A DNA stretch of 64,000 nucleotides from Massilia varians (GTDB lineage Bacteria; Pseudomonadota; Gammaproteobacteria; Burkholderiales; Burkholderiaceae_D), in contig NZ_AP026966.1 in assembly GCF_027923905.1 (NCBI RefSeq), positions 5,395,001-5,459,000 on the forward strand. Reading direction: 5' to 3'. The notes below the pieces were generated by a model. That model saw only the letters and a program-made list of their open reading frames with translations. It was not told where the DNA came from and searched no databases. The position numbers and the translations under genes are program-made. This document shows positions 1,926 through 53,892 of this stretch, piece after piece (position 1 is the first letter of the stretch; every line of letters starts with the position of its first letter).

Positions 1926-2109
1926 AAAAAAACCCGGTCAACAGACTAATGCCGTTCAGTTAGCGTAAAAATGTAGGGTGGTCGGCTTCGCCGACCGCGC
2001 GTCCAAATCACCAATGCACTGTGGCAGAGCAAAATGGAGTTGAACGCGCGGCCGGGAAACCCGGCCACCCTACGCTTAACTGAACGGCATTACGGTCAAC
2101 AGACCGGGC
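1926..2109 (-). terminator. Rho-independent terminator of the M16 gene, split by a MITE
   Basis: Removing the 146-bp element and one copy of its 12-bp duplication restores, on the minus strand, the hairpin CCCGGTC-TGTT-GACCGGG followed by seven T (A-tract at 1926-1932). This is the natural terminator of the M16 peptidase gene ending at 2129. The insertion now separates one arm from the other and from the T-tract. Confidence 0.8.
1947..2092. mobile_element. 146-bp IS4-type MITE containing a REPIN, copy 1
   Basis: The ends are inverted repeats starting TAATGCCGTTCAGTTA, reading in from both sides. The flanks are a perfect 12-bp direct repeat CGGTCAACAGAC (1935-1946 and 2093-2104). The end sequence and the 12-bp duplication resemble the IS4 subgroup of IS4-family elements (ends close to TAATGCCGATCAGTTAAG, 11-13 bp duplications, from family knowledge). 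The element codes for nothing. Positions 1973-2073 inside it form a REPIN of the GTAGGGTGG family. A second copy lies at 53731-53876 with three base differences. This element fills most of the gene-free stretch 1816-2128. Confidence 0.85.
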
Positions 2110-2128
2110 TTTCCATTACAACATCAGA

Positions 2129-4945
2129 TCAACGAATCGGCTTGCCGTCCGCATCGACCACGGTCACCTCGCCCCAGCCGAGCGAGCGCACGCCGGCCTC
2201 GATCTTGCGCAGGTCGCCGATCACCATCCACACCGCTTCGTCCGGCTTGATGAACTTGCTCGAGGCCGCGGCCAGCTGCTCCGGCTTGAGCGCGCGCACG
2301 TTCGACGCGTAGCTGGTCCAGTAATCGTCGGCCAGGCTCAGGTTGACGGCGTCCAGCCCTGCCGCTTCGAGCGCGGCGAGGGTGGAGAAGCGGCCCGGCA
2401 GGCGCGAGGTCATGTTGCGCATGATGCTCTCGTATTCAAGGCCCACCAGCGGACGCTCGCCGGCCACGCCGCGCAGTTCCTTCTGGACCTCACGCATGGC
2501 TTCGACCGTCTTGTCGGTCTGCACCGGCGCGATGATGTAGAACGGACGCTGGCCGCGCACGTCCGGCAGGCGCGCCTGGGTGCCGTAGCTCCAGTGCTTG
2601 TCCAGGCGCAGGTTGCGGTTCAGGCGCGAGGTGGCGATGCCGCCGAAGTTGGTCATCACCGGCTCCATCGCCAGGTCTTCCGGCTGGCCGTTGGGCTGCG
2701 ACACGTGGGTCGCGACGATGGTCGACTGCGGCGCGTCCGGCTTGTCGATCAGGATCAGGCGCTTGCCGCGGGTCGGCGGCACGGTGGCCATCTGCTTGGC
2801 CGGGGCGCTGCCCTGCTGCCACTTGCCGAAGCTCGCTTCCAGCGCCGGCAGCAGCTTGTCCATGGTGGTATCGCCGGCCACGACGATGGTGGCGCTGCCC
2901 GGCTTGAACCAGGTGCCGTGCCATGCCATCAGGTCGTCGCGGCTCAAGCCCTGGACGCTGCCTTCGAAGCCGGAAGCCGGCTTGCCGTAGGCATGCTCAG
3001 GGCCATACAGCACCGCCGGGATCAGGCGCAGGGCCAGGCTGTTCGGCTGGGCCTTTTCCTGGCCGATGGCGGCGATGCGGCGGCTCTTCGACAGCGCGAA
3101 CTGGTCTTGCGGGAAGCTCGGGCTCAGCGCCGCCTCGGCCATCAGCTTGAGGGATGGCGCCAGGTTGGCGCTGGTGGCCTGCAGGCGCACCAGCGACTGG
3201 TCCTGGTTGGTAGCGGTGCCCAGGCGCGCGCCCAGGTTTTCCAGCGCGTCCGACAGCGCGAAGGCGTCACGCGATGTCGTGCCCTTGTCCAGCAGGTCGA
3301 GCGCCAGCGAGGCGGCGCCGGCCTTGGCCGCGGTGTCCGAGGCCGCGCCGGCGTCGACCGCCAGCGAGGCGGCGCCGGCCTTGGCCGCGGTGTCCGAGGC
3401 CGCGCCGGCGTCGACCGCCAGCGAGACGTTGACGATCGGGGCGGTGTGACGTTCGAGCAGCACGACCTTCAGGCCGTTCTTCAGCTGGGCGCGCTGCAGT
3501 GCCGGGAACTTCACGTCCGGCGCCTCGCCCAATGCGGGCAGCTGCTTGCGGTCCAGGGTCGACTTGGTGGCCGCCAGCTTGGCCGAGGGCCGCACGGTCA
3601 TGGTGTAGTGGTTGGCGCGCAGCCAGCGGTTGGCAGCGGCCTTGACGTCCGCCGGGGTGCTGGTGGCGAACAGCTCGAGGCGGTCGAGGTAGGCGTCCGG
3701 CTTGCCGCCGTAGGTCTGGCTCTCGGCCAGCACGTCGTTGCGGCCGCCCATGCCGCCCACGCGCTCCAGGCCGCGCGCGAAATCGGCCAGGTCGCGGGTC
3801 TTCACGCGCTTGAGTTCCGCGTCAAGCGGGCCCTTGTCGAGCAGCTCGGCCACCACGCGCTCCATCTCGCGTTCGACTTCCGCCGGATCGACGCCCGGCT
3901 TGACGGTGACGGACAGGTTGAACGTGCCGCCCAGTTCCGCATCGTTCACGTAGGCCGAGACGCCGGTCGCCATGCCCTTCTCGTACACCAGGCGCTTGTC
4001 CAGGCGCGCGTTCTTCGAGCCGGCCAGCACGCCGGCCAGCAGGTTCAGGCGCTGGGTGTCGGCGTCCTTCCACGAGGAGGTGTGCCAGCTGCGGTAGATG
4101 CGCACCTGCGGCACGTGGTCTTCCATCTCGTCGCGGATGTTGCGGTCCAGCTGGGGGATCCATTTTTCAAGGCGCGGCAGCGGCGGACCGGGCGGGATCG
4201 CGCCGAAGTACTTGTTCACCAGCTCATAGGCGCGTTCCGGGGTGATGTCGCCGGCCAGCGAGATCACCGCGTTGTTCGGGCCGTAATAGGTGCGGTACCA
4301 CTCCTTGATGTCGTCCAGCGAGGCGGCCTGCAGGTCTTCCATGTAGCCGATGGTCGACCACGAATACGGGTGCGAGTACGGGTACATCTTGCTTGATATT
4401 TCCATGCGCACGCGGCCATACGGCTGGTTCTCGCCCTGGCGCTTCTCGTTCTGCACCACGCCGCGCTCGCGCTCCAGCATCGCCTGCGAGATGTAGTTGC
4501 CCAGGAAGCCCATGCGGTCCGATTCCAGGAACAGGGTGCGCTCCAGCGCCGACACCGGCACGTCTTCGAAGAAGTTGGTGCGGTCGACGTTGGTGGTGCC
4601 GTTGCGGTTGTTCGCGCCCAGGTCGTCCATCGCCTCGCGGAAGCCGTGCGGGTAGTTCTCGGAACCGTTGAAGAAGAAGTGCTCGAACAGGTGGGCGAAG
4701 CCGGTCTTGCCGCGCTTCTCGTTGCGCGAACCGACGTGGTACCACATGTTCACGCCGACCACCGGCACGCTGTGGTCGGCGTGGACCAGCAGGGTCAGGC
4801 CGTTGGGCAACACGAATTTTTTATGGTCGATGCTGTAGGCCTTGCGGTCGAAGACGGTTTGCTTCGTAGCGGGTGCGGCGGCGTGGGAAGGCAGGGCTGC
4901 TGCGGCTGCGATACCGAGCAGGATGGGCAGTGCGAGTTTTTTCAT
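2129..4945 (-). CDS. M16 family zinc metallopeptidase (pitrilysin-like), secreted
   Basis: A 938-residue protein with a signal peptide (about residues 1-23, ending in SHAAA) and two M16 halves. The inverted zinc motif HLFEH is at residues 85-89 and the distal zinc Glu is in VVQNEKRQ (E167), so the N-terminal half should be catalytic. The C-terminal half (from about residue 510) lacks the motif, as is usual for the inactive half that closes the chamber. Expected role: periplasmic degradation of peptides. The start is the ATG at 4945, followed directly by a Lys-Lys signal peptide; the frame stays open much further upstream, but only as antisense-like low-complexity sequence. Odd: a 57-bp tandem duplication at 3304-3417 adds 19 residues to the C-terminal half. 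Confidence 0.92.
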   Translation of the reverse strand: MKKLALPILLGIAAAAALPSHAAAPATKQTVFDRKAYSIDHKKFVLPNGLTLLVHADHSVPVVGVNMWYHVGSRNEKRGKTGFAHLFEHFFFNGSENYPHGFREAMDDLGANNRNGTTNVDRTNFFEDVPVSALERTLFLESDRMGFLGNYISQAMLERERGVVQNEKRQGENQPYGRVRMEISSKMYPYSHPYSWSTIGYMEDLQAASLDDIKEWYRTYYGPNNAVISLAGDITPERAYELVNKYFGAIPPGPPLPRLEKWIPQLDRNIRDEMEDHVPQVRIYRSWHTSSWKDADTQRLNLLAGVLAGSKNARLDKRLVYEKGMATGVSAYVNDAELGGTFNLSVTVKPGVDPAEVEREMERVVAELLDKGPLDAELKRVKTRDLADFARGLERVGGMGGRNDVLAESQTYGGKPDAYLDRLELFATSTPADVKAAANRWLRANHYTMTVRPSAKLAATKSTLDRKQLPALGEAPDVKFPALQRAQLKNGLKVVLLERHTAPIVNVSLAVDAGAASDTAAKAGAASLAVDAGAASDTAAKAGAASLALDLLDKGTTSRDAFALSDALENLGARLGTATNQDQSLVRLQATSANLAPSLKLMAEAALSPSFPQDQFALSKSRRIAAIGQEKAQPNSLALRLIPAVLYGPEHAYGKPASGFEGSVQGLSRDDLMAWHGTWFKPGSATIVVAGDTTMDKLLPALEASFGKWQQGSAPAKQMATVPPTRGKRLILIDKPDAPQSTIVATHVSQPNGQPEDLAMEPVMTNFGGIATSRLNRNLRLDKHWSYGTQARLPDVRGQRPFYIIAPVQTDKTVEAMREVQKELRGVAGERPLVGLEYESIMRNMTSRLPGRFSTLAALEAAGLDAVNLSLADDYWTSYASNVRALKPEQLAAASSKFIKPDEAVWMVIGDLRKIEAGVRSLGWGEVTVVDADGKPIR
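3304..3417. repeat. 57-bp perfect tandem duplication inside the M16 gene
   Basis: Positions 3304-3360 and 3361-3417 are identical, and the first bases of a third unit follow. The peptide unit LAVDAGAASDTAAKAGAAS is therefore present twice in a row. The length is a multiple of three and keeps the frame. Family members normally have this strand-turn-helix segment of the C-terminal M16 domain once. Confidence 0.9.
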
Positions 4946-4998
4946 GGCGTCTCGTGGACAGTTGTTGTATGTATGCGTCCCGTCGAATCGCGCGCCGG

Positions 4999-5032
4999 TT
5001 GGACGCGCGGTCGGCAGAGCCGACCACCCTAC
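4999..5032. repeat. Single REP unit (GTAGGGTGG family)
   Basis: On the minus strand it begins GTAGGGTGGTCGGC, forms a TCGGC-TCT-GCCGA hairpin and ends CGCGCGTCCAA. It is the half-size version of the paired elements at 15648-15759 and 44069-44196, and lies between the Sel1-repeat gene and the M16 gene. Confidence 0.75.
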
Positions 5033-5064
5033 AGGAATCGCCGGGCTTGCGCCAGTGGGGAAAC

Positions 5065-6609
5065 TCAGGAAGAAGCCTGCGCCTGCGCCAGCAACTGCGG
5101 CTCCATGCGCGCCGCGATCTTCTTCAGATAGCCTGACGCGGCGGCGACGCCGGCGCCGCCCGCGCGCTGCAGCCAGGCATAGGCCTCGACCAGGTCGCGC
5201 TGCACGCCCTGCCCCGCCGAGTACATCACGCCAAGGTTGAACTGGGCGCGCGCATGGCCCTGGCGCGCCGCGCACAGGTACCAGAAATGCGCCGCTTCGT
5301 AGTCGCGCTCGATGCCCTTGCCGCAGTCGTGGCGCAGGCCCAGCTCGAACTGCGCCAGCGCGTGGCCCTGGTCGGCGGCCTTGTGAAACCAGTCGGTCGC
5401 TTCGCTTGGATCGGCGTGTTCGGCGCGGTCCAGCAGCACGCCCACCATGTACTGGGCCGGCGCGTAATCCTGGGCCGCCGCGCGGCGGTACCACTCCAGC
5501 GCCTGCGCCTCGTCGCGCGCCACGCCGATCCCGCCTTCGTAGCGCAGGCCGAGGTCGAACTGGGCGCGCAGGTGGCCCTGCTCGGCCGCCTTGCGGTACC
5601 AGTGCGCCGCCTGGGCGGGGTCCTGCGGCACGCCGCTGCCGGCATCGAACAGCTGGCCGAGATGGTACTGGGCCGAGGGCATGCCCTGCTCGGCGGCCTG
5701 GCGGTACCAGTGCGCGGCCTGGGTCCAATCGCGTTCGACGCCCTGCCCGTGCTCGTAGCGCACGCCGAGGTTGTCCTGGGCGCCGGCATGGCCTTGTTCG
5801 GCCGCGCGGCGGTACCAGTGCAGCGCCAGCGCTTCGTCGCGCGGCACGCCGTGGCCGCTGTCGTAGATGAGGGCGAGGTTGAACTGGGAACTGGCGTGGC
5901 CCTGGTTCCCGGCGCGGCCGTACCACTGGATCGCCAGCTCGCTGTCCTGCTCGACGTCCTGCCCCTTGTCGTAGCGCAGTCCGAGGTTGAACTGAGCCGG
6001 CGCGTAGCCCTGTTCGGCGGCCTTGCGGAACAAGTCGACGGCTTGCATGCCGCTGCTGCGCAGAGCGAGGCTGAACTGCGAGCGCGCATAGCCCTGTTCC
6101 GCCGCGCGCCGGTACCACTCGGTGGCCGCGTCCTGGTCCTGGGGCACGCCCTTGCCGGTCTCGTACATCATGCCGAGGTTGTGCTGGGCGCCGGGTTCGC
6201 CCTGGCTTGCTGCCTGGCTGAACCAGTGCAGGGCCTGCTGCACGTCGCTCGGCACGCCCTGCCCTTTCGCATACAGCCAGCCCAGGTTGTACTGCGCCGG
6301 CGCATAGCCCTGCTCGGCGGCGCGGCGGTACCAGTAGGCGGCCTGGCCATAGTCCTGGCCGACGCCCTGCCCCTTCTGGTACATGACGCCGAGGTTGTAC
6401 TGGGCCAGCTCGAGGTCGGCGCTGGCCGCCATGCGATACCAGGCGACCGCCAGTTCGTAGTTCTGCGGCACGCCCTGGCCGCTGGCGTACATGAAGCCCA
6501 GGCTGTGCTGGGCGCTCGGCACGCCGCGCTCGGCCATGCCCTTCACGCGCAGGAATTCCGCGGTGTGGCGACCTTCGATGTCGCCAGGCTGGGCAGGTAT
6601 GTCGAGCAT
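5065..6609 (-). CDS. Sel1-repeat (SLR/TPR-like) protein
   Basis: A 514-residue protein made almost entirely of about 13 Sel1-like repeats of 36 residues. Each carries the AQxNLGxxYxxGxGVxxD...A.xWYRxAAEQG pattern. The fifth repeat is shortened (SQFSLALRSSGMQAVDLF). No signal peptide or membrane segment is visible, so it is probably a cytoplasmic scaffold. It starts 9 bp after the end of the REC-PAS-GGDEF-EAL gene and is the last gene of that operon, which suggests it is a protein-interaction partner in the same c-di-GMP pathway. The product is not one with a known specific function. Confidence 0.85.
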   Translation of the reverse strand: MLDIPAQPGDIEGRHTAEFLRVKGMAERGVPSAQHSLGFMYASGQGVPQNYELAVAWYRMAASADLELAQYNLGVMYQKGQGVGQDYGQAAYWYRRAAEQGYAPAQYNLGWLYAKGQGVPSDVQQALHWFSQAASQGEPGAQHNLGMMYETGKGVPQDQDAATEWYRRAAEQGYARSQFSLALRSSGMQAVDLFRKAAEQGYAPAQFNLGLRYDKGQDVEQDSELAIQWYGRAGNQGHASSQFNLALIYDSGHGVPRDEALALHWYRRAAEQGHAGAQDNLGVRYEHGQGVERDWTQAAHWYRQAAEQGMPSAQYHLGQLFDAGSGVPQDPAQAAHWYRKAAEQGHLRAQFDLGLRYEGGIGVARDEAQALEWYRRAAAQDYAPAQYMVGVLLDRAEHADPSEATDWFHKAADQGHALAQFELGLRHDCGKGIERDYEAAHFWYLCAARQGHARAQFNLGVMYSAGQGVQRDLVEAYAWLQRAGGAGVAAASGYLKKIAARMEPQLLAQAQASS

Positions 6610-6618
6610 GGCGTCCGC

Positions 6619-8841
6619 TTACGCCTGCACTGCCCGCAGGCCGAACAGCGTCGGCTGGGTGCGCAGCGCCTTGATGAATTCGCCCAGCGGGATCGGGCGG
6701 TAGTACAGGTAGCCCTGCATGGTCATGCAGCCGTTGGCGCGCAGGTAGCGCGCCTGTTCCTCGGTCTCCACGCCTTCGGCGATCAGGTTCAGTCCCAGGC
6801 CCCGTGCGATCGAGATGATCGCCAGGATCACCGGATAGTGGCCGCCCTCTTCGTGGATCTCCTTGACGAAGGACTGGTCGATCTTGACCGTGTGGATCGG
6901 GAAGCGGTGCAGGTAGGACAGCGACGAGTAGCCGGTGCCGAAATCGTCGATCGCCACCGACACGCCGAGCTGGCACAGTTTGTTCAGCTGCTCGATCGCG
7001 TACTGCGGGTTGCGGATGCAGATGTTCTCGGTGATCTCGACTTCGATCTGGCCGGGCTGGATGCCGTAGCGCACCAGCGCGTTGCGCATCTTTTCGAAGA
7101 AGTCGCCGCGGTCCAGGTATTGCGGCGACAGGTTGAGCGACAGGCGCACGTGGTCGGTGCCCGAGGCATTCCACTGCAGCATGTCGCGGCACAGCGCGCC
7201 GATCATCCAGTCCGAGATCGGCAGCATCAGGCCGTTCTCTTCCGCGAAGGGCAGGAACTCGCCGGCCGACAGGAGGCCCCGGGTCGGGTGGTTCCAGCGC
7301 ATCAGCGCCTCGGCGCCGACGATGCGGCCGGTGAGCGCGTCGATCTGCGGCTGGTAGTACATCTCCAGCTCGTCCTGCTCGAGCGCGCGGCGCAGCGCCT
7401 GCTCGAGGGCGATCTTCTGGTGCGAGATGTCCAGCATCGAGGTGTGGTAGAAGCTGTGCCCGTTCTTGCCCTGGGCCTTGATCTGGTACATGGCGATGTC
7501 GGCATGGCGCAGCAGCTCGTCGATCGATTCGCCGTCGGTCGGGTAGATCGCGATGCCGATCGAGGCCGAGATGTGCACTTCGTGGCCGTCCAGGTCGAAG
7601 GGCTCCTGCAGGGTCTCGAGGAACTTGTCGGCGACCATGCGCGCGTCGTCGCGGTCGCGCAGTTCCGGCAGCACGATGGTGAATTCGTCGCCGCCCTGGC
7701 GCGCCAGCGTGTCGCCCTTGCGCAGGCAGCCCTTCAGGCGGGTGGCGGCCTGCTGCAGCAGTTCGTCGCCCTTCACGTGGCCGAGCGTGTCGTTGACCAG
7801 CTTGAAGCGGTCCAGGTCGATGAACATCACCGCCAGCTCGGTCTTCTTGCGCTTGGCCTGGATCACGGCCAGTCCGAGGCGGTCCTTGAACAGGATGCGG
7901 TTCGGCAGGTCGGTCAGGATGTCGTGGTAGGCCTGGTAGGAGATGACCTCTTCCGCGCGCTTGCGGTCGGTGATGTCGCGCGCCACGCCGTAGGTGCCGA
8001 AGAACTCGAGCTTCTTCACTTCCTGGTCGGGCACGTGCATGCCGATCGCGTTGAGCGAAATCGTCATCAGGGTGGTGTTGAAGGTGCGGTCCAGGCCGTT
8101 GCCGCCGCTGTTGCGGCATTTCAGGCGCAGCTCGACGTTGCGCGAGGCGCGTTCGTCGACGCGGCGCTCGTTGAAGACGTAGCGCGCGCGCTCCAGGTCT
8201 TCCTCGTGCACCAGCACCGAGTAATGCTTGCCGAGCAGCTCGTCGCGCGAGTAACCCAGCAGCTGGTAGGCGCGGTCGTTCACGAAAGTGAAGCGGCCTT
8301 CGTGGTTCAGCGTGTAGATGATGTCCGGCGAGGAGTCCACCAGGTAGCGGTACATCTTCTCGGAGTTTTCCAGCTGGGTGGCCATGCGCTCGTTCTCGAG
8401 CGCCAGGCGGCGGCCCTTGAGGGCGTTGACCACCGTGGCCAGCAGTTCTTCCCTGGCATAGGGCTTGCGCAGGTAGTCGTAGGCGCCGCGCTTGAGCGCG
8501 CCGATCGCCGCATCGATGCCGACCTCGCCGCTCATCACGATCACGTCGGCGTCGATGCCCCGCTCGTTGATGAAGTCCATGATCTCGTGGCCGCCGATGT
8601 CCGGCAGGCGCAGGTCGAGCAGGACCAGGTCGAAGCGCAGGCGCGACAAATGGGCCAGGGCTTCGCTGCCCGAGGATGCGGTGGTGAGCTGGTAGCCGCG
8701 GCCCTTCAGCAGCTCGTACAGCGAGGACAGCAGGCGCGGCTCGTCGTCGACCAGCAGCAGGCGTGGCTGGCTGTCGGTCTCGAGCGTCGGGGAATACGGA
8801 GCCGGTTCGCCGGAAAACATGGCGTGATGCGCGTTGATCAT
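6619..8841 (-). CDS. Response regulator with PAS, GGDEF and EAL domains (c-di-GMP turnover)
   Basis: A 740-residue protein. The receiver domain (about 26-145) has the acidic pair D32-D33, the phosphoacceptor D76 in LVLLDLRLP and the KP motif. A PAS domain follows at about 155-290. The GGDEF domain (about 300-470) has an intact GGDEF signature in ARQGGDEFTIVLP. The EAL domain (about 480-735) has EALMRW, IDDFGTGYSS, KIDQSF and AEGVETEEQA, so both activities may be present. The ATG lies 4 bp after the stop of the HDOD histidine kinase gene, which suggests that kinase as partner. A second ATG at 8820 is possible. The role is phosphorylation-dependent control of c-di-GMP. Confidence 0.9.
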   Translation of the reverse strand: MINAHHAMFSGEPAPYSPTLETDSQPRLLLVDDEPRLLSSLYELLKGRGYQLTTASSGSEALAHLSRLRFDLVLLDLRLPDIGGHEIMDFINERGIDADVIVMSGEVGIDAAIGALKRGAYDYLRKPYAREELLATVVNALKGRRLALENERMATQLENSEKMYRYLVDSSPDIIYTLNHEGRFTFVNDRAYQLLGYSRDELLGKHYSVLVHEEDLERARYVFNERRVDERASRNVELRLKCRNSGGNGLDRTFNTTLMTISLNAIGMHVPDQEVKKLEFFGTYGVARDITDRKRAEEVISYQAYHDILTDLPNRILFKDRLGLAVIQAKRKKTELAVMFIDLDRFKLVNDTLGHVKGDELLQQAATRLKGCLRKGDTLARQGGDEFTIVLPELRDRDDARMVADKFLETLQEPFDLDGHEVHISASIGIAIYPTDGESIDELLRHADIAMYQIKAQGKNGHSFYHTSMLDISHQKIALEQALRRALEQDELEMYYQPQIDALTGRIVGAEALMRWNHPTRGLLSAGEFLPFAEENGLMLPISDWMIGALCRDMLQWNASGTDHVRLSLNLSPQYLDRGDFFEKMRNALVRYGIQPGQIEVEITENICIRNPQYAIEQLNKLCQLGVSVAIDDFGTGYSSLSYLHRFPIHTVKIDQSFVKEIHEEGGHYPVILAIISIARGLGLNLIAEGVETEEQARYLRANGCMTMQGYLYYRPIPLGEFIKALRTQPTLFGLRAVQA

Positions 8842-8845
8842 GATC

Positions 8846-11172: not shown

Positions 11173-11241
11173 TACTTTCTGTAAAAAGTGTTGTCGAGAT
11201 GTCGTACTAAAGCTAGAGGCGAAGAAACGCTATGTCGGCAG

Positions 11242-11293
11242 GAATGAAAGAATATTTCATATATGCATGCATACATGAAATATTCTTTCATTC
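11242..11293. repeat. Perfect 19-bp AT-rich inverted repeat
   Basis: The arm GAATGAAAGAATATTTCAT (11242-11260) is repeated exactly in inverse orientation at 11275-11293 around a 14-base centre that itself contains TGCATGCA. It lies between the MFS gene end and the HDOD kinase promoter, about 70 bp upstream of the candidate -35. No T-tract follows in either direction, so an ordinary rho-independent terminator is unlikely. An operator or a supercoil-sensitive cruciform fits better. Confidence 0.8.
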
Positions 11294-11341
11294 ATACAGC
11301 CAGGAGCGGCTACGTACAGCGATCGGGTTCGGTGAACCCGA

Positions 11342-15647: not shown

Positions 15648-15759
15648 GTAGGGTGGGCAGGTCCCCTGCCCACGCGTTCAAATCACATTCGAGAAATAAC
15701 AGCAGCCGAGTAATTCACGCGCCGGTTGAACGCGTGGGCGGGGGACCCGCCCACCCTAC
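15648..15759. repeat. REPIN (paired REP units) between holA and proA
   Basis: It starts GTAGGGTGGGCAGG and ends with the inverse GGGTGG-type end (CCACCCTAC). Each half forms a GGGC-rich hairpin and ends ACGCGTTCAA or its inverse, around a non-conserved spacer. The last four bases are inside holA: the TAG stop of holA is the TAG of the terminal GTAGGG. Confidence 0.85.
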
Positions 15760-44068: not shown

Positions 44069-44196
44069 GTAGGGTGGTCGGCTCTGCCGACCGCGCGTTC
44101 AACTCCGCTATGCTCTGTAGCAACGCATCTGTGATTTGAACGCGCGGACGGCAGTGATTCAGGCCAGTGGCCTGAATCACAAACCGTCCACCCTAC
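44069..44196. repeat. REPIN between mnmA and the EAL gene, with a nested palindrome
   Basis: It begins GTAGGGTGGTCGGC and ends CCGTCCACCCTAC, with inner ends CGCGCGTTCAA and TTTGAACGCGCGG. The right half carries an extra perfect palindrome at 44154-44180 (12-bp arms GTGATTCAGGCC) placed in what is normally the short loop of the REP hairpin. The last bases belong to the EAL gene, whose TAG stop is the TAG of GTAGGG. Confidence 0.85.
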
Positions 44197-46827: not shown

Positions 46828-46831
46828 GCTT

Positions 46832-47227
46832 CTACTGCTCCTTGGCAGCGGCCTGCTGCTTGCGCACCACCGCGATCACGGTATTGCGGATGGTCTTGAG
46901 CACGGCGTCGGCCTTGAAGGGCTTGACGATGAAGCCGTGCACGCCGCGCCCGAGGGCGTCCTGGATGGCGGCGGCATCCAAGGTGCCCGACACCATGAAG
47001 ATCATCGCCTTGGGCAGTTGGGCGCGCAGTTCCTCGACGATGCGGCTGCCGTCCTCGACCTGTTCGCGCGCGATGCAGACGATCTGCGGGCGATGCTTCA
47101 TCGCCAGGCCGTAGCCGAGCGTGCCGGTGTGGGTCTGCGCGACGACGTCGTAGCCGCCATCCGTCAGTACGGTATTGAGCAGGCCGCGCGCGATGGCGCT
47201 GCCGTCCACGATCAGTGCCTTCAGCAT
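46832..47227 (-). CDS. CheY-like receiver protein lacking the phosphorylation site
   Basis: A 131-residue stand-alone receiver domain. The first strand has VDGSAIARG where active receivers have VDD. The phosphoacceptor position is Ala in PQIVCIAREQVEDG (normally Asp). The switch Thr/Ser (MVSG) and the Lys of FIVKPF are kept. It should therefore fold like a receiver but not be phosphorylated in the normal way. It starts 12 bp after the nuclease gene and ends 4 bp from the convergent GAF-HTH gene. Function unknown. Confidence 0.82.
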   Translation of the reverse strand: MLKALIVDGSAIARGLLNTVLTDGGYDVVAQTHTGTLGYGLAMKHRPQIVCIAREQVEDGSRIVEELRAQLPKAMIFMVSGTLDAAAIQDALGRGVHGFIVKPFKADAVLKTIRNTVIAVVRKQQAAAKEQ

Positions 47228-47239
47228 CGGCGCTTTCCT

Positions 47240-48025
47240 TCAATCGGATTCATAGGCCAGCATGTTCCAGGTGACGCCCAGCCGCACATCGAGCTTGAGC
47301 GACACCAGGCAGCGCGACATCTCGAGTATCTCGCGCTCGGCGCGCAGCCTTTCGCCCAGCGGCGTCTTGAGGATACCGGCGCCCGCCATCACGGCGTCCA
47401 GGCTGCCGTAGGCATTGAGCAGGCGCGCCGCGGTCTTCATGCCGATCTTCGACACGCCCGGCACGCCGTCGGTCGGGTCGCCCATCAGCGCCAGCAGGTC
47501 GTGCAGCAGTTCCGGCGCCACGCCGAAGCGCTGGCGTACCCAGGCGTCGTCATGCCATTCGTTCTTGAAATGGTCCCACACCAGCGCGCCATGGGCGATC
47601 AGGATGTGCAGGTCCTTGTCGGTGGTGGCCACGATGGCCTCGCCCCGCCCTTCCTGCAGCCAGCGCATGACGCCGGTGGCGATCACGTCGTCGGCCTCGA
47701 CCTGGGGCACGGCCAGCACGTGCAGGCCGGCCTGGCGCAGGCGCTCGTGGAATTGCGGCAGGGCTTCGCGCAACGGCGCCGGCATGGCGGTGCGTCCTTC
47801 GCGGTAGCGCGGATAGAGCGCATGGCGCCAATTGGGGCCGCCGTAGTCGAAGGCCGCCAGCACGTGGGTGGGCGCGTGCGCTTCCAGCACGTTGCGGAAG
47901 GACGAGAACGCGTGGCGCAGCGCGATGCTGGCCTTCAGGTCGGAGTCCGGTTCGGGGCTGGCTTCGTACACGCGGCGCACGATGTTCAGGCCGTCGATGG
48001 CGAGCAGCTTTCCCTGTTTGCTCAT
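47240..48025 (-). CDS. 5'-3' exonuclease/flap endonuclease homologue (Xni/ExoIX-like)
   Basis: A 261-residue protein that corresponds to the 5' nuclease domain of DNA polymerase I without the polymerase. Acidic metal ligands appear in LLAIDGLNIVRR, AFDYGGPNWRH, VEADDVIATG, ATTDKDLHIL and LMGDPTDGVPGV, followed by the helix-3-turn-helix GVSKIGMKTAARLLNAYG. It probably processes flaps and ends in replication or repair. The level of activity is uncertain, since E. coli Xni is a weak nuclease. Confidence 0.85.
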   Translation of the reverse strand: MSKQGKLLAIDGLNIVRRVYEASPEPDSDLKASIALRHAFSSFRNVLEAHAPTHVLAAFDYGGPNWRHALYPRYREGRTAMPAPLREALPQFHERLRQAGLHVLAVPQVEADDVIATGVMRWLQEGRGEAIVATTDKDLHILIAHGALVWDHFKNEWHDDAWVRQRFGVAPELLHDLLALMGDPTDGVPGVSKIGMKTAARLLNAYGSLDAVMAGAGILKTPLGERLRAEREILEMSRCLVSLKLDVRLGVTWNMLAYESD

Positions 48026-48081
48026 GGTGGTGCGTCTATCGGATTGGTCACTAGCGCCGCCATGATAAACCGGGCGGCCTG

Positions 48082-48762
48082 TCAGGCATAGTCGTACTTG
48101 CCGCCGCGCTCCAGCGCGCGCGCGTAGGCCGGTCGCGCATGGATCCGCGCCAGGAAAGCGGACAGCTTCGGATACTGGCTGCCGAGCCCTCCGCGCGAGG
48201 CGGCCGCCTCCAGCGCAAAGCTCATCTGGATGTCGGCGGCGCTGAACTCCTCGCCGGCGAACCAGGTCGACTTGCCCAGCTCGCTCTCCAGGAAGTCGAG
48301 CTGGCCGCGGATGTTCGGCATGATGAAGCTGTCCTTGACCTTGCGCGCGATCGAGCGCGCGATCGGTTTCGCAAAGAAGGGCATCGGACTGTTCTCGACC
48401 TTGTCGAACACCAGCTTCATCAGCAGCGGCGGCATGGCCGAGCCTTCGGCGAAGTGCAGGTAGTAGGTATAGCGCAGGCGTTCCGGCGTGCCGGGCGCCG
48501 GCACCAGGCGCCCGTTGCCGTAGCGGCCGGTGAGGTATTCCACGATCGCGCCCGATTCGGCGACCACAATGGTGTCACCCGGGCCGTCATCGGTGATCAC
48601 CGGCGACTTGCCGAGCGGGTGCACCGCCTTCAGCTCCGGCGGCGCCAGCATGGTCTTCGGGTCGCGCTGGTACTTCTTGATCTCGTAGTCGAGCCCGAGC
48701 TCTTCGAGCAGCCAGAGGATGCGCTGCGAGCGCGAATTGTTCAGGTAGTGGACGACGATCAT
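48082..48762 (-). CDS. Glutathione S-transferase family protein
   Basis: A 226-residue protein. The N-terminal thioredoxin-like domain (1-85) has LNNSRSQRILWLLEELGLDYEI and the glutathione-binding HPLGKSPVITDDG and VAESGAIVEYLTGRYG. The all-helical C-terminal domain has AADIQMSFALEAAASRGGLG with the N-capping motif. It probably conjugates or reduces small electrophiles; the substrate is unknown. Confidence 0.88.
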   Translation of the reverse strand: MIVVHYLNNSRSQRILWLLEELGLDYEIKKYQRDPKTMLAPPELKAVHPLGKSPVITDDGPGDTIVVAESGAIVEYLTGRYGNGRLVPAPGTPERLRYTYYLHFAEGSAMPPLLMKLVFDKVENSPMPFFAKPIARSIARKVKDSFIMPNIRGQLDFLESELGKSTWFAGEEFSAADIQMSFALEAAASRGGLGSQYPKLSAFLARIHARPAYARALERGGKYDYA

Positions 48763-48847
48763 GGCTATTTCCGCAGAGTTCGACAGGTTGCCAGCTTAGC
48801 ATGTCGTGCGCCTGCCGACGGATGAGGCGGTATATGGTAGGCGCCTT

Positions 48848-49738
48848 ATGAGCGGATCGGTCTACATCGGCATTTCCGGCTGGCGCTACGTGCCGTGGCG
48901 CGGCGTGTTCTATCCCAAGGGGCTGGTCCAGCACCGCGAGCTCGCGTACGCGGCCGGGCAGCTGCCCAGCATCGAGATCAATGGCTCGTTCTATTCGCTA
49001 CAGCGCCCCGAAAGCTATGCCGCCTGGCATGCCGCGACCCCGCCGGGCTTCGTGTTCGCGGTCAAGGGCAACCGTTTTCTCACCCACATGCTCAAGCTGA
49101 AGGACATCGAGGGTCCGCTCGCCAACGTGCTGGCCTCGGGCGTGTTCGAGCTGCGCGAGAAGCTGGGGCCCTTCCTGTGGCAGTTCCCGCCCATCGTGAA
49201 ATTCGATCCGCAGCGCTTCGAGCACTTCCTGTCGCTGCTGCCGCAGGATACCGACAGCGCCCGCGAACTGGCGCTGCAGTACCAGCCGCGCATGGAAGGC
49301 CGGGTCGCGCTCGCATCCGGCCCCAACCGCCCGATGCGCCATGCGGTCGAGATCCGGCACGAGAGCTTCCTGATTCCTTCCTTCATCGCCATGCTGCGCC
49401 GCTACAAGGTGGCGCTGGTGGTGGCCGATACCGCCGGCAGGTGGCCGCTGTGCGAGGACGTCACCGCGGACTTCGTCTACATCCGCCTGCATGGCGACAA
49501 GGAGCTGTACGCGAGCGGCTACCAGGACGAGGCCATCGCGGCCTGGGCGGCGCGCATCGATGCCTGGCGCCGGGGGCGGCAGCCGGAAGGGGCGCGGCTG
49601 GTGTCGGACGAGGCGCCGCCGCAGGCCGGGGCGCGCGACGTCTACTGCTACTTCGACAACGACATCAAGGTGCATGCGCCTTTTGACGCACGGCGCCTGA
49701 TCACTGCGGTAGACGCCATGGCGCCACAATCGAGCTAG
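48848..49738 (+). CDS. DUF72 domain protein (TIM-barrel, YecE-like)
   Basis: A 296-residue protein with the DUF72 features: YIGISGWRYVPWRGVFYPKG at the start, EINGSFYSLQRPESYAAW, GFVFAVKGNRFLTH, LGPFLWQFPP, HAVEIRHESFL, RLHGDKELY and a C-terminal YFDNDIKVHAP. The family has a TIM-barrel fold and an unknown reaction. The ATG follows the divergent GST gene by 85 bp. Confidence 0.9.
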   Translation: MSGSVYIGISGWRYVPWRGVFYPKGLVQHRELAYAAGQLPSIEINGSFYSLQRPESYAAWHAATPPGFVFAVKGNRFLTHMLKLKDIEGPLANVLASGVFELREKLGPFLWQFPPIVKFDPQRFEHFLSLLPQDTDSARELALQYQPRMEGRVALASGPNRPMRHAVEIRHESFLIPSFIAMLRRYKVALVVADTAGRWPLCEDVTADFVYIRLHGDKELYASGYQDEAIAAWAARIDAWRRGRQPEGARLVSDEAPPQAGARDVYCYFDNDIKVHAPFDARRLITAVDAMAPQSS

Positions 49739-49779
49739 AATGGTGTCCCACCCACGCAGTGTTTGACCAGGAGGCTATT

Positions 49780-50154
49780 ATGAAATTGCTTCGAGTCAGT
49801 ACCGCTGTCATTTCCCTGCTGTTTTCCGCCACCACCCTCGCCGCCGACAGCACTCCGCTGAAGCACGCACACGGCATGCTCGTCGATCACGCCGGCATGA
49901 CCGTCTACACCTATGACAAGGACACCCCGAACAGTGGCAAGAGCGCTTGCGTCGCCACCTGCGCCAAGAACTGGCCGCCCGTGATGGCCCAGGGCACGCC
50001 GCCCGCCCCCTATTCGGTCGTCACGCGCGAAGACGGCAGCAAGCAGCTGGCCCACAAGAGCAAGCCGCTGTACACCTTCGTGAAAGACAAGAAAGCGGGA
50101 GACAAGACCGGCGACGGCGTCGGCGGCGCCTGGCACATCGTCGGGGAAGAATAA
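49780..50154 (+). CDS. Secreted COG4315-type repeat protein
   Basis: A 124-residue protein with a signal peptide (SLLFSATTLAADS). Two copies of the COG4315 motif follow: GMLVDHAGMTVYTYDKDTP near residue 32 and LAHKSKPLYTFVKDKKAGD near residue 87. Between them is SACVATCAKNWPPV with a possible disulfide. An ideal RBS (CAGGAGG) stands before the ATG. The function of the family is unknown; export to the periplasm is clear. Confidence 0.85.
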   Translation: MKLLRVSTAVISLLFSATTLAADSTPLKHAHGMLVDHAGMTVYTYDKDTPNSGKSACVATCAKNWPPVMAQGTPPAPYSVVTREDGSKQLAHKSKPLYTFVKDKKAGDKTGDGVGGAWHIVGEE

Positions 50155-50162
50155 GCAGCGCG

Positions 50163-50426
50163 TCAGCGCCGCTCGTGGATCTTGATGACCTTGCCGTTGC
50201 CCTTGCCGGGCGGCGGCGCGGGCTCGGCCGGCCCGCAGGTACCGCAGCTGTTGCAGCCGCTGCCGCAGCTGGCCGAGGTATCCAGCCACTTGACCAGCCT
50301 CGATTGCCGGCCGCCCCTGGAGAGACGGTGCACGATCGCGCGCCGCCAGCTGTCCGGCAGGTACTTCGCGCCGGCGTACAGCACGGCCAGCGCGACGATG
50401 ATCCCGGTGACCAGCTCCTGCCACAT
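50163..50426 (-). CDS. Small membrane protein with Cys-rich tail in the feo operon (DUF6587-like)
   Basis: An 87-residue protein. One membrane segment (TGIIVALAVLYAGAKYL, residues 7-23) is followed by a basic stretch and a cytoplasmic tail with four Cys (SCGSGCNSCGTCG, residues about 53-65). It starts 3 bp after feoB. In many bacteria a small third protein (FeoC or a Cys-rich protein) accompanies FeoAB. A role in iron handling or in an Fe-S-dependent switch is inferred from position and the Cys cluster. Confidence 0.72.
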   Translation of the reverse strand: MWQELVTGIIVALAVLYAGAKYLPDSWRRAIVHRLSRGGRQSRLVKWLDTSASCGSGCNSCGTCGPAEPAPPPGKGNGKVIKIHERR

Positions 50427-50429
50427 GTC

Positions 50430-52310
50430 CTAGCCTCCCGTGAGGAACAAGGTGGTGCGGTAGACGATGAAGGCGGCCACGTAGGCCAGGCCGAACATGT
50501 AGCCGGCCATGATCCAGGCGTAGCGGCGGCTGCCGGTCTCGCGCGCCACCGTGGCCAGCGTCGGTAGGCAGTGCGGCGCGTAGACGTACCAGGTCAGGAG
50601 CGCCAGGCCGGTTGCCAGCGACCACGACTGCGCGATCACCGGCGCCAGGGCATTGGCGGCTTCGTCGCCGCCCGACAGGGCGTACACGGTGCCCAGCGCG
50701 CCGACCGCCACTTCGCGTGCGGCCATGCCCGGCACCAGGGCGATCGCGATCTCCCAGCCGAAGCCGATCGGCGCCAGGATGACTTCCAGCGCGCGGCCGA
50801 TCATGCCGGCCACGCTGTAGTAGATCGGCGGGTGGGTCGCGCCTTCCGGTGCGCCCGGGAAGCTCGACAGCAGCCACAGCAGGATCATCATGGTAAGGAT
50901 CAGGGTGCCGACCCGCTTCAGGAAGATCTTGGCACGCTCCCACAGGCCGGAGACCAGCGCACCGGGCTGAGGCCAGTGGTAGGTCGGCAGTTCCATCATG
51001 AGCACGTGCTGCTTGTAGTCGCTGCGGCGCTTCATGAACCAGGCCACCGCCATGGCGCTCAGGATACCCGCCATGTAGAGGGCGAACAGCACCAGGCCCT
51101 GCAGGTTCATGATGCCGCCCACTTCGCGGTCCGGAATGAAGGCGGCGATCAGGAGCGCATACACCGGCAGGCGCGCCGAGCAGGTCATGAGCGGCGCGAT
51201 CATGATCGTCACCAGGCGGTCGCGCGGGTTCTGGATGGTGCGCGCGGCCATGATGCCCGGGATCGCGCAGGCGAACGAGGACAGCAGCGGCAGGAAGGCG
51301 CGGCCCGACAGGCCGACGCTGCCCATGATGCGGTCGAGCAGGAAGGCGGCGCGCGGCAGGTAGCCCACGTCTTCCAGCACCAGGATGAAGAAGAACAGGA
51401 TCAGGATCTGCGGCAGGAACACCAGCACGCTGCCGACGCCGGCGATGATGCCGTCCACGATCAGGCTGTGCAGCACGCCCTCGCCCAGCAGCACGCCGAC
51501 CTGCTCGCCAAGGGCGGCCACGCCCGCCTCGATCAGTTCCATCGGCGTCTCGGCCCAGCTGAACACGGCCTGGAAGATCAGGAACATCAGGGCGGCCAGG
51601 ATCACCGGGCCGAGCACCGGATGCAGCACCACGTTGTCGATCTTTTCCGTCAGGTTGCCGCGGTCGCCGTCGGTCACGACGGCCAGCTCGAGGATGCGGC
51701 GCACTTCGCGCTGGGTTTCCTCGACCGGCACGGCGTCGATCGCGGAAAGCGGATTCGGCTTGACGGTGGTATCGAAGACCATGCGGTCGAGCTGGGCCAG
51801 CAGGGCGTCTTCGCCGTGGGCATGGATGGCGACGGTTTCCACCACCGGCATGGCGAGCGCGGCGGAGAGCTTGGCGGTATCGATGCTGATGCCGCGCTTC
51901 TTGGCGACGTCGACCATGTTCAACACGAGCACCATGGGAAGCCCGAGACGCTTGAGCTCGAGCACCATGCGCAGGTTCAGGCGCAGATTGGTGGCGTTGA
52001 CCACGCACAACACCGCATCCGGCGCCGCTTCGCCTGCGCGCAGGCCGGCGACCACGTCGCGCGTGATGGCTTCGTCCGGCGTGTAGGCGCTCAGGCTGTA
52101 GGCGCCCGGCAGGTCGAGCACGCGGAACGCGCGGCCCGCCGGCGAGGTGAAGCTGCCTTCCTTGCGTTCGATGGTCACGCCGGCGTAGTTCGCGACCTTC
52201 TGGCGCGAACCGGTCAGGCGGTTGAAGAGCGCGGTCTTGCCGCAGTTGGGATTGCCGAGCAGTGCGACCAGGGGCGTGCGCGACGCCACCTGTTGTTCCA
52301 TGACACCCAT
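50430..52310 (-). CDS. feoB: Ferrous iron transporter FeoB
   Basis: A 626-residue inner-membrane protein. The N-terminal GTPase has G1 GNPNCGKTALFNRLTG (residues 19-34), G3 LDLPGAYSL and G4 LNMVD. Two Gate-type membrane regions follow, with the conserved Cys in SFACAIPGIMAARTI and TCSARLPVYALL. It is shorter than the 773-residue E. coli protein, mainly between domains and at the C-terminus, but no conserved part seems missing. It imports Fe(II). It starts 4 bp after feoA. Confidence 0.95.
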   Translation of the reverse strand: MGVMEQQVASRTPLVALLGNPNCGKTALFNRLTGSRQKVANYAGVTIERKEGSFTSPAGRAFRVLDLPGAYSLSAYTPDEAITRDVVAGLRAGEAAPDAVLCVVNATNLRLNLRMVLELKRLGLPMVLVLNMVDVAKKRGISIDTAKLSAALAMPVVETVAIHAHGEDALLAQLDRMVFDTTVKPNPLSAIDAVPVEETQREVRRILELAVVTDGDRGNLTEKIDNVVLHPVLGPVILAALMFLIFQAVFSWAETPMELIEAGVAALGEQVGVLLGEGVLHSLIVDGIIAGVGSVLVFLPQILILFFFILVLEDVGYLPRAAFLLDRIMGSVGLSGRAFLPLLSSFACAIPGIMAARTIQNPRDRLVTIMIAPLMTCSARLPVYALLIAAFIPDREVGGIMNLQGLVLFALYMAGILSAMAVAWFMKRRSDYKQHVLMMELPTYHWPQPGALVSGLWERAKIFLKRVGTLILTMMILLWLLSSFPGAPEGATHPPIYYSVAGMIGRALEVILAPIGFGWEIAIALVPGMAAREVAVGALGTVYALSGGDEAANALAPVIAQSWSLATGLALLTWYVYAPHCLPTLATVARETGSRRYAWIMAGYMFGLAYVAAFIVYRTTLFLTGG

Positions 52311-52314
52311 CCGC

Positions 52315-52572
52315 TTATTCCGGCTTGATCGACACGAGGGCCGCTTCGAAGCGGCGCAGCGCGAAGGTCGATTCGCCGACCTTGACGGCCAGCGGGCCGC
52401 CCAGCACGCGCTTGAGCACGCGGATACGTTCGCCCGGCACGAAGCCGAGCTCCATCAGGCGGCGCTGAACGTCGAAACCGCCCTGTTGCGCCGGCGGCGC
52501 CAGGTGGATCACGGTAGCGCTCTGGCCGGCAGGAAGGGCGTCGAGCGTGGTGAGGGAGGGAGCAAGAGTCAT
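52315..52572 (-). CDS. feoA: Ferrous iron transport protein FeoA
   Basis: An 85-residue SH3-like protein with VQRRLMELGFVPGERIRVLK and GPLAVKVGESTFALRRFEA. It supports FeoB activity. It is the first gene of feoA-feoB-small protein and has a Fur-box-like site about 55 bp upstream. Confidence 0.93.
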   Translation of the reverse strand: MTLAPSLTTLDALPAGQSATVIHLAPPAQQGGFDVQRRLMELGFVPGERIRVLKRVLGGPLAVKVGESTFALRRFEAALVSIKPE

Positions 52573-52627
52573 GGTCGCGTCCAGTAAGTGTAGCGCTGAT
52601 GAGACAGATAGCTAGCATCATAAACCT

Positions 52628-52648
52628 AAATGCGAATTATTTCTATTT
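52628..52648 (-). promoter_or_regulatory. Fur-box-like site upstream of feoA
   Basis: On the minus strand AAATAGAAATAATTCGCATT agrees in several positions with the 7-1-7 Fur consensus (GATAAT-like repeats around ATTCGCATT). It is a weaker match than the site at 52736-52754. Confidence 0.55.
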
Positions 52649-52735
52649 GCGGTTTGATCACAGTCTAAAAGAAAGACCACGTCAACACAAAATTCCTGTT
52701 GCAAACGACGCCGAGTTTACGGAGAATAGAACACG

Positions 52736-52754
52736 AATGAGATTGATTCTCATT
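52736..52754 (+). promoter_or_regulatory. Fur box upstream of bfd
   Basis: AATGAGATTGATTCTCATT has perfectly complementary 7-base arms (AATGAGA and TCTCATT) and closely resembles the classical Fur box. It lies 52 bp before the bfd ATG and within the bfd/feoA divergent promoter region. Confidence 0.8.
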
Positions 52755-52805
52755 TAAATGACAAGTGAATAATGTGGCTCGACCGAGTCTCAAGGAACCG
52801 AAACG

Positions 52806-53015
52806 ATGATCGTCTGTGTCTGCAACAACATCTCCGACCGCGAAATCCGCCAGGCCGTCGACCTGGGGATCAGCTCGGTCGCCGAACTGCACAAGGAACT
52901 GGGCGTCGGCACCATGTGCGGCAAGTGCGTGAGCTATGCACGCGAAGTCCTGCACGAACATCTCGAGAGCAAAACCACGATCACCGAAGTGCGCCGCGTC
53001 CCGCAGGCGGCCTGA
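52806..53015 (+). CDS. bfd: Bacterioferritin-associated ferredoxin
   Basis: A 69-residue [2Fe-2S] protein. The cluster ligands are the Cys residues of CVCNNIS (residues 4 and 6) and MCGKCVSYA (residues 38 and 41). Bfd reduces the iron core of bacterioferritin so that iron can be released. Under low iron it should be de-repressed by loss of Fur from the site at 52736-52754. It is divergent from feoA and precedes bfr. Confidence 0.95.
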   Translation: MIVCVCNNISDREIRQAVDLGISSVAELHKELGVGTMCGKCVSYAREVLHEHLESKTTITEVRRVPQAA

Positions 53016-53038
53016 ACAGCACCAACGTCTCTCTCCCT

Positions 53039-53063
53039 GCCCCGCCTGCGCGGGGCTTTTTTT
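53039..53063 (+). terminator. Rho-independent terminator of bfd
   Basis: GCCCCGCCTGCGCGGGGC forms a 7-bp stem around a CTGC loop and is followed by T7. The same hairpin core occurs after bfr, where it has been hit by a mobile element; here it is intact. Confidence 0.93.
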
Positions 53064-53237
53064 CGCCCGCGCCGGGTGATTGAGAAGCGTTCGCACGGCG
53101 GAACGAGAACGCTTGTCATTCCCGCCGTTTTTTTCGATTTTCACTGCATTTTCCCGGGCTTTTTCAGCGTTTTCGGCCCAAAAGCGGGCGGCTTGTTTGT
53201 TATCATGGAGCCTATTCAACATCATCAAGGGCATCAC

Positions 53238-53708
53238 ATGAAAGGCGACCAGAACGTTCTTCGTCTGCTGAACGCGCAGCTGACCAACGAACTCACCGCG
53301 ATCAACCAGTACTTCCTGCATGCGCGCATGTACCGCCACTGGGGCTTCGGCAAGCTGGCGAAGAAGGAGTACGACGAATCGATCGGCGAGATGAAGCACG
53401 CCGACAAGCTGATCGACCGCATCCTGATGCTCGACGGCCTGCCGAACCTGCAGGCGCTGCACAAGCTGCTCATCGGTGAATCGACCCAGGAAATGCTGGA
53501 ATGCGACCTCAAGCTCGAGCGCGCGGCCCAGGTGACGGTCAAGGAAGGCATCGCGGCGGCGGAAGCGGCGGCCGACTACGTGACCCGCGACCTGTTCCTG
53601 ATGATCCTCGAAGATACCGAGGAACACATCGAGTGGCTGGAAACGCAGCTGGACCTGATCGTCAAGGTCGGCATCCAGAACTACCTGCAGAGCCAGATCA
53701 GCGAATAA
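53238..53708 (+). CDS. bfr: Bacterioferritin
   Basis: A 156-residue iron-storage subunit of the 24-mer type. The ferroxidase ligands are conserved (E18 in LTNELTAINQYFLHARM; E51 and H54 in GEMKHADK; a Glu in CDLKLERAA; E and H in ILEDTEEHIEWLE). The haem ligand is M52. The start is the ATG at 53238, preceded by AAGGG. It follows bfd and its terminator, so it probably has its own promoter in 53064-53237. Confidence 0.96.
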   Translation: MKGDQNVLRLLNAQLTNELTAINQYFLHARMYRHWGFGKLAKKEYDESIGEMKHADKLIDRILMLDGLPNLQALHKLLIGESTQEMLECDLKLERAAQVTVKEGIAAAEAAADYVTRDLFLMILEDTEEHIEWLETQLDLIVKVGIQNYLQSQISE

Positions 53709-53717
53709 AAAACAAAC

Positions 53718-53892
53718 CCCGCCTGCGCGGTAATACCGTTCAGTTAGCGTAAAAATGTAGGGTGGTCGGCTTCGCCGACCGCGCGTCCAAGTCACCAATG
53801 CACTGTGGCAGAGCAAAATGGAGTTGAACGCGTGGCCGGGAAACCCGGCCACCCTACGCTTAACTGAACGGCATTACCGCCTGCGCGGGGTT
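53718..53892 (+). terminator. Rho-independent terminator of bfr, split by a MITE
   Basis: Without the 146-bp element and one 12-bp duplication the sequence is CCCCGC-CTGC-GCGGGG followed by TTTT. This is the same hairpin as the intact bfd terminator at 53039. The insertion is in the loop region. Confidence 0.85.
53731..53876. mobile_element. 146-bp IS4-type MITE containing a REPIN, copy 2
   Basis: The element starts TAATACCGTTCAG and ends CTGAACGGCATTA. It is flanked by a perfect 12-bp duplication CCGCCTGCGCGG (53719-53730 and 53877-53888). The inner 101 bp (53757-53857) are a REPIN. It has the same length as the copy at 1947-2092 and differs from it at three positions, so both are recent. 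Confidence 0.87.

Follow-up and report, generated by a model that had tools for sequence, protein, structure and literature searches.

REPIN-bearing units with IS4-type ends in Massilia varians as probable miniature elements of a resident insertion sequence

Introduction

A 64,000-nucleotide stretch of the Massilia varians genome (assembly GCF_027923905.1, contig NZ_AP026966.1, positions 5,395,001 to 5,459,000; the window hereafter) contains two 146-bp elements in which a REPIN, i.e., a hairpin-forming doublet of repetitive extragenic palindromic (REP) sequences, is enclosed by inverted ends resembling those of an IS4-type insertion sequence (IS). REPINs are thought to depend on REP-associated tyrosine transposase (RAYT) enzymes. 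The first-pass annotation of the window attributed the ends and the 12-bp duplications beside them to an IS4-type transposase, and proposed that a REPIN had gained a second route of mobility together with a new target preference, for terminator loops. The question raised by this locus is what these composite units are and which transposase would move them. Judging from sequence comparisons across the host genome and its genus, we consider the 146-bp unit very probably to be a miniature inverted-repeat transposable element (MITE) of a resident IS4-subgroup IS, with a complete REPIN as its body, since ten such units and two full-length ISs in the same genome share their ends and duplications of about 12 bp and the ISs encode an intact transposase.

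Results

Structure of the 146-bp units

Both units carry TAATRCCGTTCAGTTA at each end in inverted orientation. A search of the window with the terminal inverted repeat (TIR) motif TAATGCCGTTCAGTTA, allowing up to 3 mismatches, returned four matches against 0.08 expected, all of them at the four unit ends, and the REP motif GTAGGGTGG matched nine times against 0.23 expected. The 101-bp core of each unit has the layout GTAGGGTGG ... CCACCCTAC and comprises two REP hairpins; it is a complete REPIN, as the first-pass annotation had described it, and the same family also stands alone elsewhere in the window (Table 1). The annotation had further assigned about 25 bp of IS4-like sequence to each side of the core. 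Inverted IS4-type ends are indeed present on both sides, but the parts outside the core are unequal, measuring 26 bp to the left of it and 19 bp to the right. Each unit is bordered by a 12-bp duplication, CGGTCAACAGAC at copy 1 and CCGCCTGCGCGG at copy 2.

A resident IS4-subgroup insertion sequence with the same ends

The host genome (G000; G numbers denote genomes throughout), to whose 5,575,375-bp contig the window belongs, contains two 1420-bp ISs that are identical to each other, share their ends with the 146-bp unit over 16-18 bp, and are both flanked by 12-bp duplications. Each encodes an intact 442-aa transposase with Nterm_IS4 and DDE_Tnp_1 domains (Pfam), which scores 268.6 bits against the NCBIfam IS4 model with its cut-off of 115. 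The element agrees with the IS4 subgroup of the IS4 family (PMC2266710) in its ends (-AATR--------WTW in the subgroup, TAATGCCGTTCAGTTA here), its length (1400-1650 bp), its direct repeats (10-13 bp), its catalytic spacing D(60-110)D(100-150)E (D133, D210 and E315, the D residues having been chosen by motif rather than from an alignment) and its YREK motif (YTQRWRIETSYRELK at position 308 of the transposase), and we found nothing against its membership in the accessible part of that description. Relatives of the transposase numbered 1771 at E <= 1e-20 among 7999 scored candidates, and those named among the 120 listed are IS4-family transposases of Pseudoduganella, Duganella, Noviherbaspirillum, Janthinobacterium, Collimonas and Burkholderia. 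Thus, the IS4-type transposase that the first-pass annotation had postulated from the ends and duplications has a counterpart in the host with the very ends of the unit.

The left end of this first IS is itself a terminator-like hairpin with a T run (TAATGCCGTTCAGTTAAGACTGAACGGCATTTTT; L040 201-240), and a solitary remnant of that hairpin lies at G000:C1:374263 (L032). As for how the unit arose, a simple internal deletion of the 1420-bp IS was rejected, as the two have only about 18 bp in common. It is a matter of speculation whether a REPIN landed in the loop of the hairpin at the IS left end, creating two inverted ends at once; a point against such an origin is that the right end of the 146-bp unit is a full TIR.

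Copies of the unit in the host genome

Across the host genome, the end motif matched 33 times with up to 2 mismatches, and these matches are accounted for by ten composite units, the two 1420-bp ISs, three elements of 167 bp and a 61-bp derivative matched at one of its ends, together with two ends that stand alone. Nine of the composite units are 146 bp long and the tenth 141 bp; all ten are dispersed and carry no transposase gene. Four are identical, and pairwise identity among all ten averages 0.967 with a minimum of 0.911. For the 23 distinct free REPINs examined, pairwise identity averages 72% with a maximum of 84%. Their duplications measure 12 bp in eight cases, 11 bp in one and 13 bp in one, with one mismatch in one unit. 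The unit thus has the features by which MITEs are recognized: TIRs in common with an autonomous IS, duplications as long as those of the parent, and several dispersed, similar copies. The IS4-subgroup transposase would bind the TIRs in trans and move the whole unit into a palindrome, duplicating about 12 bp, and the REPIN would travel within the unit body.

A close described parallel is MITEAba12 and its parent ISAba12 (PMC6382973), which resembles the 146-bp unit in being short and non-coding, in having the ends and duplication length of a resident IS, and in its inferred mobilization in trans. Unlike the 146-bp unit, MITEAba12 has, in the accessible part of that report, neither a REPIN body nor a predicted terminator, and new insertions were seen there whereas none were seen here.

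Table 1. Coordinates of the composite units, their parts and the free repeats of the same family in the window
Feature	Position	Strand	Remarks
Composite copy 1 (IS4-type TIR, GTAG-REPIN, IS4-type TIR)	1947..2092	+	146 bp
Copy 1 left TIR	1947..1962	+	TAATGCCGTTCAGTTA; end-motif search
Copy 1 right TIR	2077..2092	-	end-motif search
Copy 1 REPIN core	1973..2073	+	101 bp; two GTAG-tagged REPs in inverted order
Copy 1 left target duplication	1935..1946	.	CGGTCAACAGAC; within terminator-like hairpin
Copy 1 right target duplication	2093..2104	.	CGGTCAACAGAC
Composite copy 2	53731..53876	+	146 bp; three further genome copies identical
Copy 2 left TIR	53731..53746	+	TAATACCGTTCAGTTA; end-motif search
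Copy 2 right TIR	53861..53876	-	end-motif search
Copy 2 REPIN core	53757..53857	+	101 bp
Copy 2 left target duplication	53719..53730	.	CCGCCTGCGCGG; within bidirectional terminator-like hairpin
Copy 2 right target duplication	53877..53888	.	CCGCCTGCGCGG
Stand-alone GTAG-REPIN (comparison)	15648..15759	+	no IS4-type ends
Stand-alone GTAG-REPIN (comparison)	44069..44196	+	no IS4-type ends; 27-bp palindrome in one REP apex
Single REP	~4999-5033

A second end type and a second REPIN class

The three 167-bp elements of the host carry another GTAG-REPIN between unequal ends, TAATGCCGGTCACTTA and TAATGCCAGTCAGTTA, and their duplications are of 10 bp, with a mismatch in one. In G066, these two ends delimit 1415-bp IS4-type elements, whose transposase is 39% identical to that of the first IS and which have 10-bp duplications at all five copies examined. 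We therefore do not regard the 167-bp family as a variant whose ends changed at random, since both of its unequal ends equal those of the second IS. Relatives of the G066 element in G003 have 11- and 12-bp duplications, so the duplication length is not strict. No second-type IS was found in G000 at E <= 1e-30, and the 167-bp elements of the host therefore look orphaned. The host also holds a 61-bp derivative (G000:C1:2537066-2537126; L045 367-427) that has second-type ends, is flanked by a 10-bp duplication and retains almost none of its REPIN.

Three elements in G005 have the ends of the first IS and 12-bp duplications (two with one mismatch), and contain a REP doublet of the CGTC class instead of GTAG. 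CGTC REPINs inside first-IS ends are also present, with duplications, in G034 and G072, and G036 has one with a single IS end. CGTC REPs are described in PMC3733652 as being without a dedicated transposase, and that paper asks whether other transposases move them. The cores in these four genomes are like those REPs in their CGTC tag and in the absence of CGTC flanks from Y1_Tnp loci (0 of the 7 such loci in G005, G034, G072 and G036, one of which scored below the family cut-off), and CGTC REP matches in the genomes number 213, 145, 71 and 74, respectively. They differ from the CGTC REPs of PMC3733652, for which the accessible part reports no linked transposase, in that some lie inside IS4-type ends. 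In all, the genus has at least three different combinations of IS end and REPIN, drawn from two end types and two REPIN classes.

CGTC-type repeats without IS4-type ends occur in the spacer corresponding to the copy 2 locus in G003, G001, G081, G007 and G072 (L313, L315, L318, L319 and L320). In G036 (L309 near 1640; L321), CGTC REP hairpins seem to be broken near the apex by a repeated sequence starting CACTGCTGTCCGGAATAATT, possibly another mobile element that targets REPs.

Census of the genus

Of 62 genus genomes, 27 contain the end pattern. The census rests on the end matches listed, with G036 and G000 covered in full, and each listed match was paired with a second end (up to 3 mismatches) lying 55-450 bp away. 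This gave 75 rows, in which nested G008 pairs are counted repeatedly; four contig-edge matches (G008 and G075) yielded no paired element. Taking up to 2 mismatches as a good duplication retained 54 of the 75 rows, and removal of L100 (378 bp) as a spurious nested pairing left 53 short elements with paired ends and duplications. These comprise 44 with a full GTAG-REPIN, five with a CGTC-REPIN and four with a partly decayed GTAG-REPIN, and none of the 53 is free of REPIN sequence. As they fall into few families, they do not represent 53 separate events. The 21 rows without good duplications consist of ten with a GTAG-REPIN, four with GTAG remains and seven without a REPIN, the last being four 113-bp pairs inside IS sequence, an IS remnant (L225), a spurious pair (L297) and the ambiguous L228. 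Ends lacking a partner were left out of the count; some have a REPIN beside them (L242, L300, L301) and others do not (L210, L211, L241, L280).

The composites with duplications come from 13 genomes (G000, G001, G005, G008, G016, G034, G036, G069, G072, G073, G077, G080 and G081). Beyond these, a Burkholderiaceae metagenome-assembled contig (L148) has a 138-bp composite with an 11-bp duplication, and the enterobacterium Siccibacter colletis (NZ_JMSQ01000007.1; L152 615-709) has a 95-bp candidate combining a TAATGCCAGTCAGTTA end with a GTAGGGTGG REP, whose 13-bp duplication lies in a palindrome and whose second end is imperfect.

Insertion targets and predicted folding

To characterize the targets, the flanks of each element were joined, and a site was scored as positive if a hairpin of 5 or more pairs had the duplication at its centre and an A or T run beside it. 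The 62 sites with good duplications were tested, elements with poor duplications and two outer nested ones being excluded; the total of 61 used below leaves out L045, where the hairpin is absent. The hairpin with its A/T tract was present at 31 of 61 insertion sites; the controls gave 199 of 63,880 positions in the window and none of the 22 sites of free REPINs. The hairpin alone was present at 37 of 61 sites against 4129 of 63,880 positions. In the host, positives numbered 7/10 for the 146-bp class, 2/3 for the 167-bp class and 0/1 for the 61-bp derivative. Copies of the first IS were positive in 4/4 cases and those of the second IS in 3/7, and in other genomes the counts were 9/14 for composites with first-type ends and 4/5 for CGTC composites. 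Both 1420-bp IS copies of the host have their 12-bp duplication inside a terminator-like hairpin, as do most of the 146-bp units, and the second-type composites of G008 often lie in a palindrome within other REPINs. Judged from the joined flanks, the common target feature is a palindrome; many of these are terminator-like, and some insertions are at neither. The preference for terminator loops proposed in the first-pass annotation therefore holds in part: the targets are often terminators, but the habit is the IS's own and is broader, extending to palindromes.

The E. coli IS4 is said to follow a target rule, AAA-N20-TTT, which our literature search did not find. Nor did that search find any title or abstract in the open-access literature on a terminator or palindrome target habit for IS4-type elements. 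The accessible part of PMC2266710 describes some IS4 members as having strong insertion specificity and does not mention terminators.

The place of copy 2 is occupied in G073 by an uninserted hairpin, CCCCGCCTGTGCGGGG. No element was found at the copy 2 locus in relatives at any of the 17 loci for which both flanks were found (two more loci were incomplete), and most of the 17 spacers are too divergent for the copy 2 hairpin to be recognized. A terminator pattern scan around copy 2 returned no site; the scan allows only loops of 3-8 and is blind to hairpins interrupted by an element. Folded as RNA with their flanks, copy 1 reaches -100.8 kcal/mol (z = -10.8) and copy 2 reaches -108.7 kcal/mol (z = -9.5). 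The outer stem in these structures is the original hairpin, and the empty forms fold at -13.9 and -17.3 kcal/mol, respectively. Since target, TIRs and REPIN alike are inverted repeats, the folded unit prolongs the target hairpin, and because the insertion is near the apex, the stem base and the A/T tract are kept and a long stem is added. On these predicted structures, termination would be retained after insertion, and insertion should be mild, since the hairpin base and the A/T tract stay in place.

Setting of the two units in the window

Copy 1 is flanked by two minus-strand genes, by the end of one for a peptidase M16 on one side and by the start of one matching radical-SAM proteins slightly under the Pfam cut-off on the other. 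Copy 2 has a ferritin-like gene and a PfkB-kinase gene on its two sides, which converge on it. Two other repeats were observed in the window: within the region of the peptidase M16 gene (3296-3409), 57 bp are duplicated in tandem with 98% identity, and at 11233-11302 there is an AT-rich inverted repeat whose arms, 35 bp each and 86% complementary, have no spacer between them.

Free REPINs and RAYT genes

The host genome has 275 GTAG REP matches and five RAYT-family (Y1_Tnp) genes, three of which are flanked by GTAGGGTGG. Only 24 GTAGGGTGG starts adjoin an IS4-type end, so the outer ends are not a constant companion of this REPIN family; as a transposase with these ends is also present, neither of the two findings that the first-pass annotation named as refuting it was made. 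The composite core thus resembles the GTAG REPINs and RAYTs of PMC3116915 and PMC3733652 in having two inverted GTAG-tagged REPs in a host with REP-flanked Y1_Tnp genes, and differs from them, as far as the accessible parts of those papers describe, in its IS4-type ends, its target duplications and its lack of any sign of RAYT movement. The core of copy 2 is 94-100% identical to the ten composite cores. Among the 40 of 222 candidates that were scored, the next full-length match in the genome is at 81%, and shorter partial matches reach up to 100% over 34 bp. The cores have therefore spread with the IS ends and are unseen outside them.

Some REPs contain a further palindrome of about 25-27 bp in the apex, with the centre CCANTGG or similar (e.g., GTGATTCAGGCCAGTGGCCTGAATCAC). 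Examples are the free REPIN at 44069-44196 of the window and L087, L088, L092, L100, L104, L110, L201 and L208. In G008, composites are inserted into such apex palindromes of other copies.

Discussion

Several observations weigh against regarding the 146-bp unit as a MITE of the resident IS. Only about 18 bp per end are common to unit and IS, and the inner flanks of the unit are non-IS sequence. Of 18 second-type composites in other genomes, only two pass the terminator test. A transposase match at E <= 1e-30 was found in four of the 13 genomes with composites (G000, G036, G077 and G080) and in none of the other nine, most of which are drafts. The duplications of relatives range from 10 to 13 bp, so that duplication length is weak evidence on its own. 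Lastly, transposition was not observed, and movement is something we infer from sequence.

Nevertheless, the alternatives fare worse. That the outer parts are merely extended REPIN flanks moved by a RAYT, with their likeness to IS ends due to chance, is scarcely credible: REPINs are numerous here and are described as being moved as units in the accessible part of PMC3116915, but the 24 end-adjacent GTAGGGTGG starts against 275 REP matches, the target duplications and the identical ends on a full IS all speak against it, and we rejected the outer ends as normal REPIN flanks. The dual mobility favoured by the first-pass annotation, in which the composite REPIN would still be moved by a RAYT besides the IS transposase, is very unlikely. 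The core does keep both GTAG-tagged REPs and the host does have three REP-flanked Y1_Tnp genes, but no free REPIN close to the composite core turned up among the scored candidates, nothing was seen that points to a RAYT having moved the REPIN out of its composite, and the CGTC composites of G034, G036, G072 and G005 are in genomes whose seven Y1_Tnp loci lack CGTC flanks.

The role of the REPIN within the unit and the number of times the hybrid arose are separate matters. The mini-element could depend on the REPIN in order to work, and not simply carry it, e.g., if the hairpin joins the ends or protects the unit. All 53 elements have a REPIN or its remains, across two REPIN classes and two end types; even so, we regard this as unlikely, as the elements form few families and are not independent, four of the 53 are decayed copies, the 61-bp derivative has a 10-bp duplication and almost no REPIN left, L228 (168 bp, with a poor duplication) may be REPIN-free, and the parent IS needs no REPIN. 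A little less probable still is the broader proposal that REPINs of this genus, including those of the CGTC class, generally have IS4-subgroup transposases as another means of transport, and that the REPIN hairpin is required, which would explain why none of the 53 short elements with duplications is REPIN-free. With two end types and two REPIN classes, the origin could be either repeated capture or one hybrid with later exchange. Derivation of all pairings from one old hybrid, in which REPINs or ends were exchanged later, is plausible but less likely than not: a GTAG composite of G000 and a CGTC composite of G034 have 21 bp in common at one end, five of which lie past the IS-like end, which hints at exchange, and an element of G080 (L200) has second-type ends around a body sharing sequence with local first-type elements. 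Against this, the flanks between end and REPIN differ strongly among the elements of G016, G080, G077 and G069.

We therefore return to the MITE interpretation, with mobilization in trans by the IS transposase as its putative mechanism. Among other small repeats, BOX/RUP and Correia elements (PMC3049150) are likewise small and interspersed, some being multi-part and some having been proposed to use an IS transposase in trans, but none of those in the accessible part of that paper combines a REPIN with DDE-type IS ends. A search of the open-access literature found no title or abstract describing a REPIN/IS hybrid of this kind, which agrees with the first-pass annotation in knowing of none. MITEs, REPINs and IS4 elements are each known; what appears to be undescribed is that they are combined, that the combination recurs, and that it extends to CGTC REPINs.

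Similar hybrids, with two kinds of hairpin repeat, are present in related Massilia-type bacteria, so that such repeats can apparently spread on borrowed transposon ends. DDE-type IS ends on REPINs show a route by which both the GTAG and the CGTC classes could reach new places, and the hybrids make the question of what moves CGTC repeats testable with a defined transposase. They also suggest why the insertions are tolerated: a palindrome inserted at the apex would lengthen the terminator stem and leave its base and A/T tract as they were.

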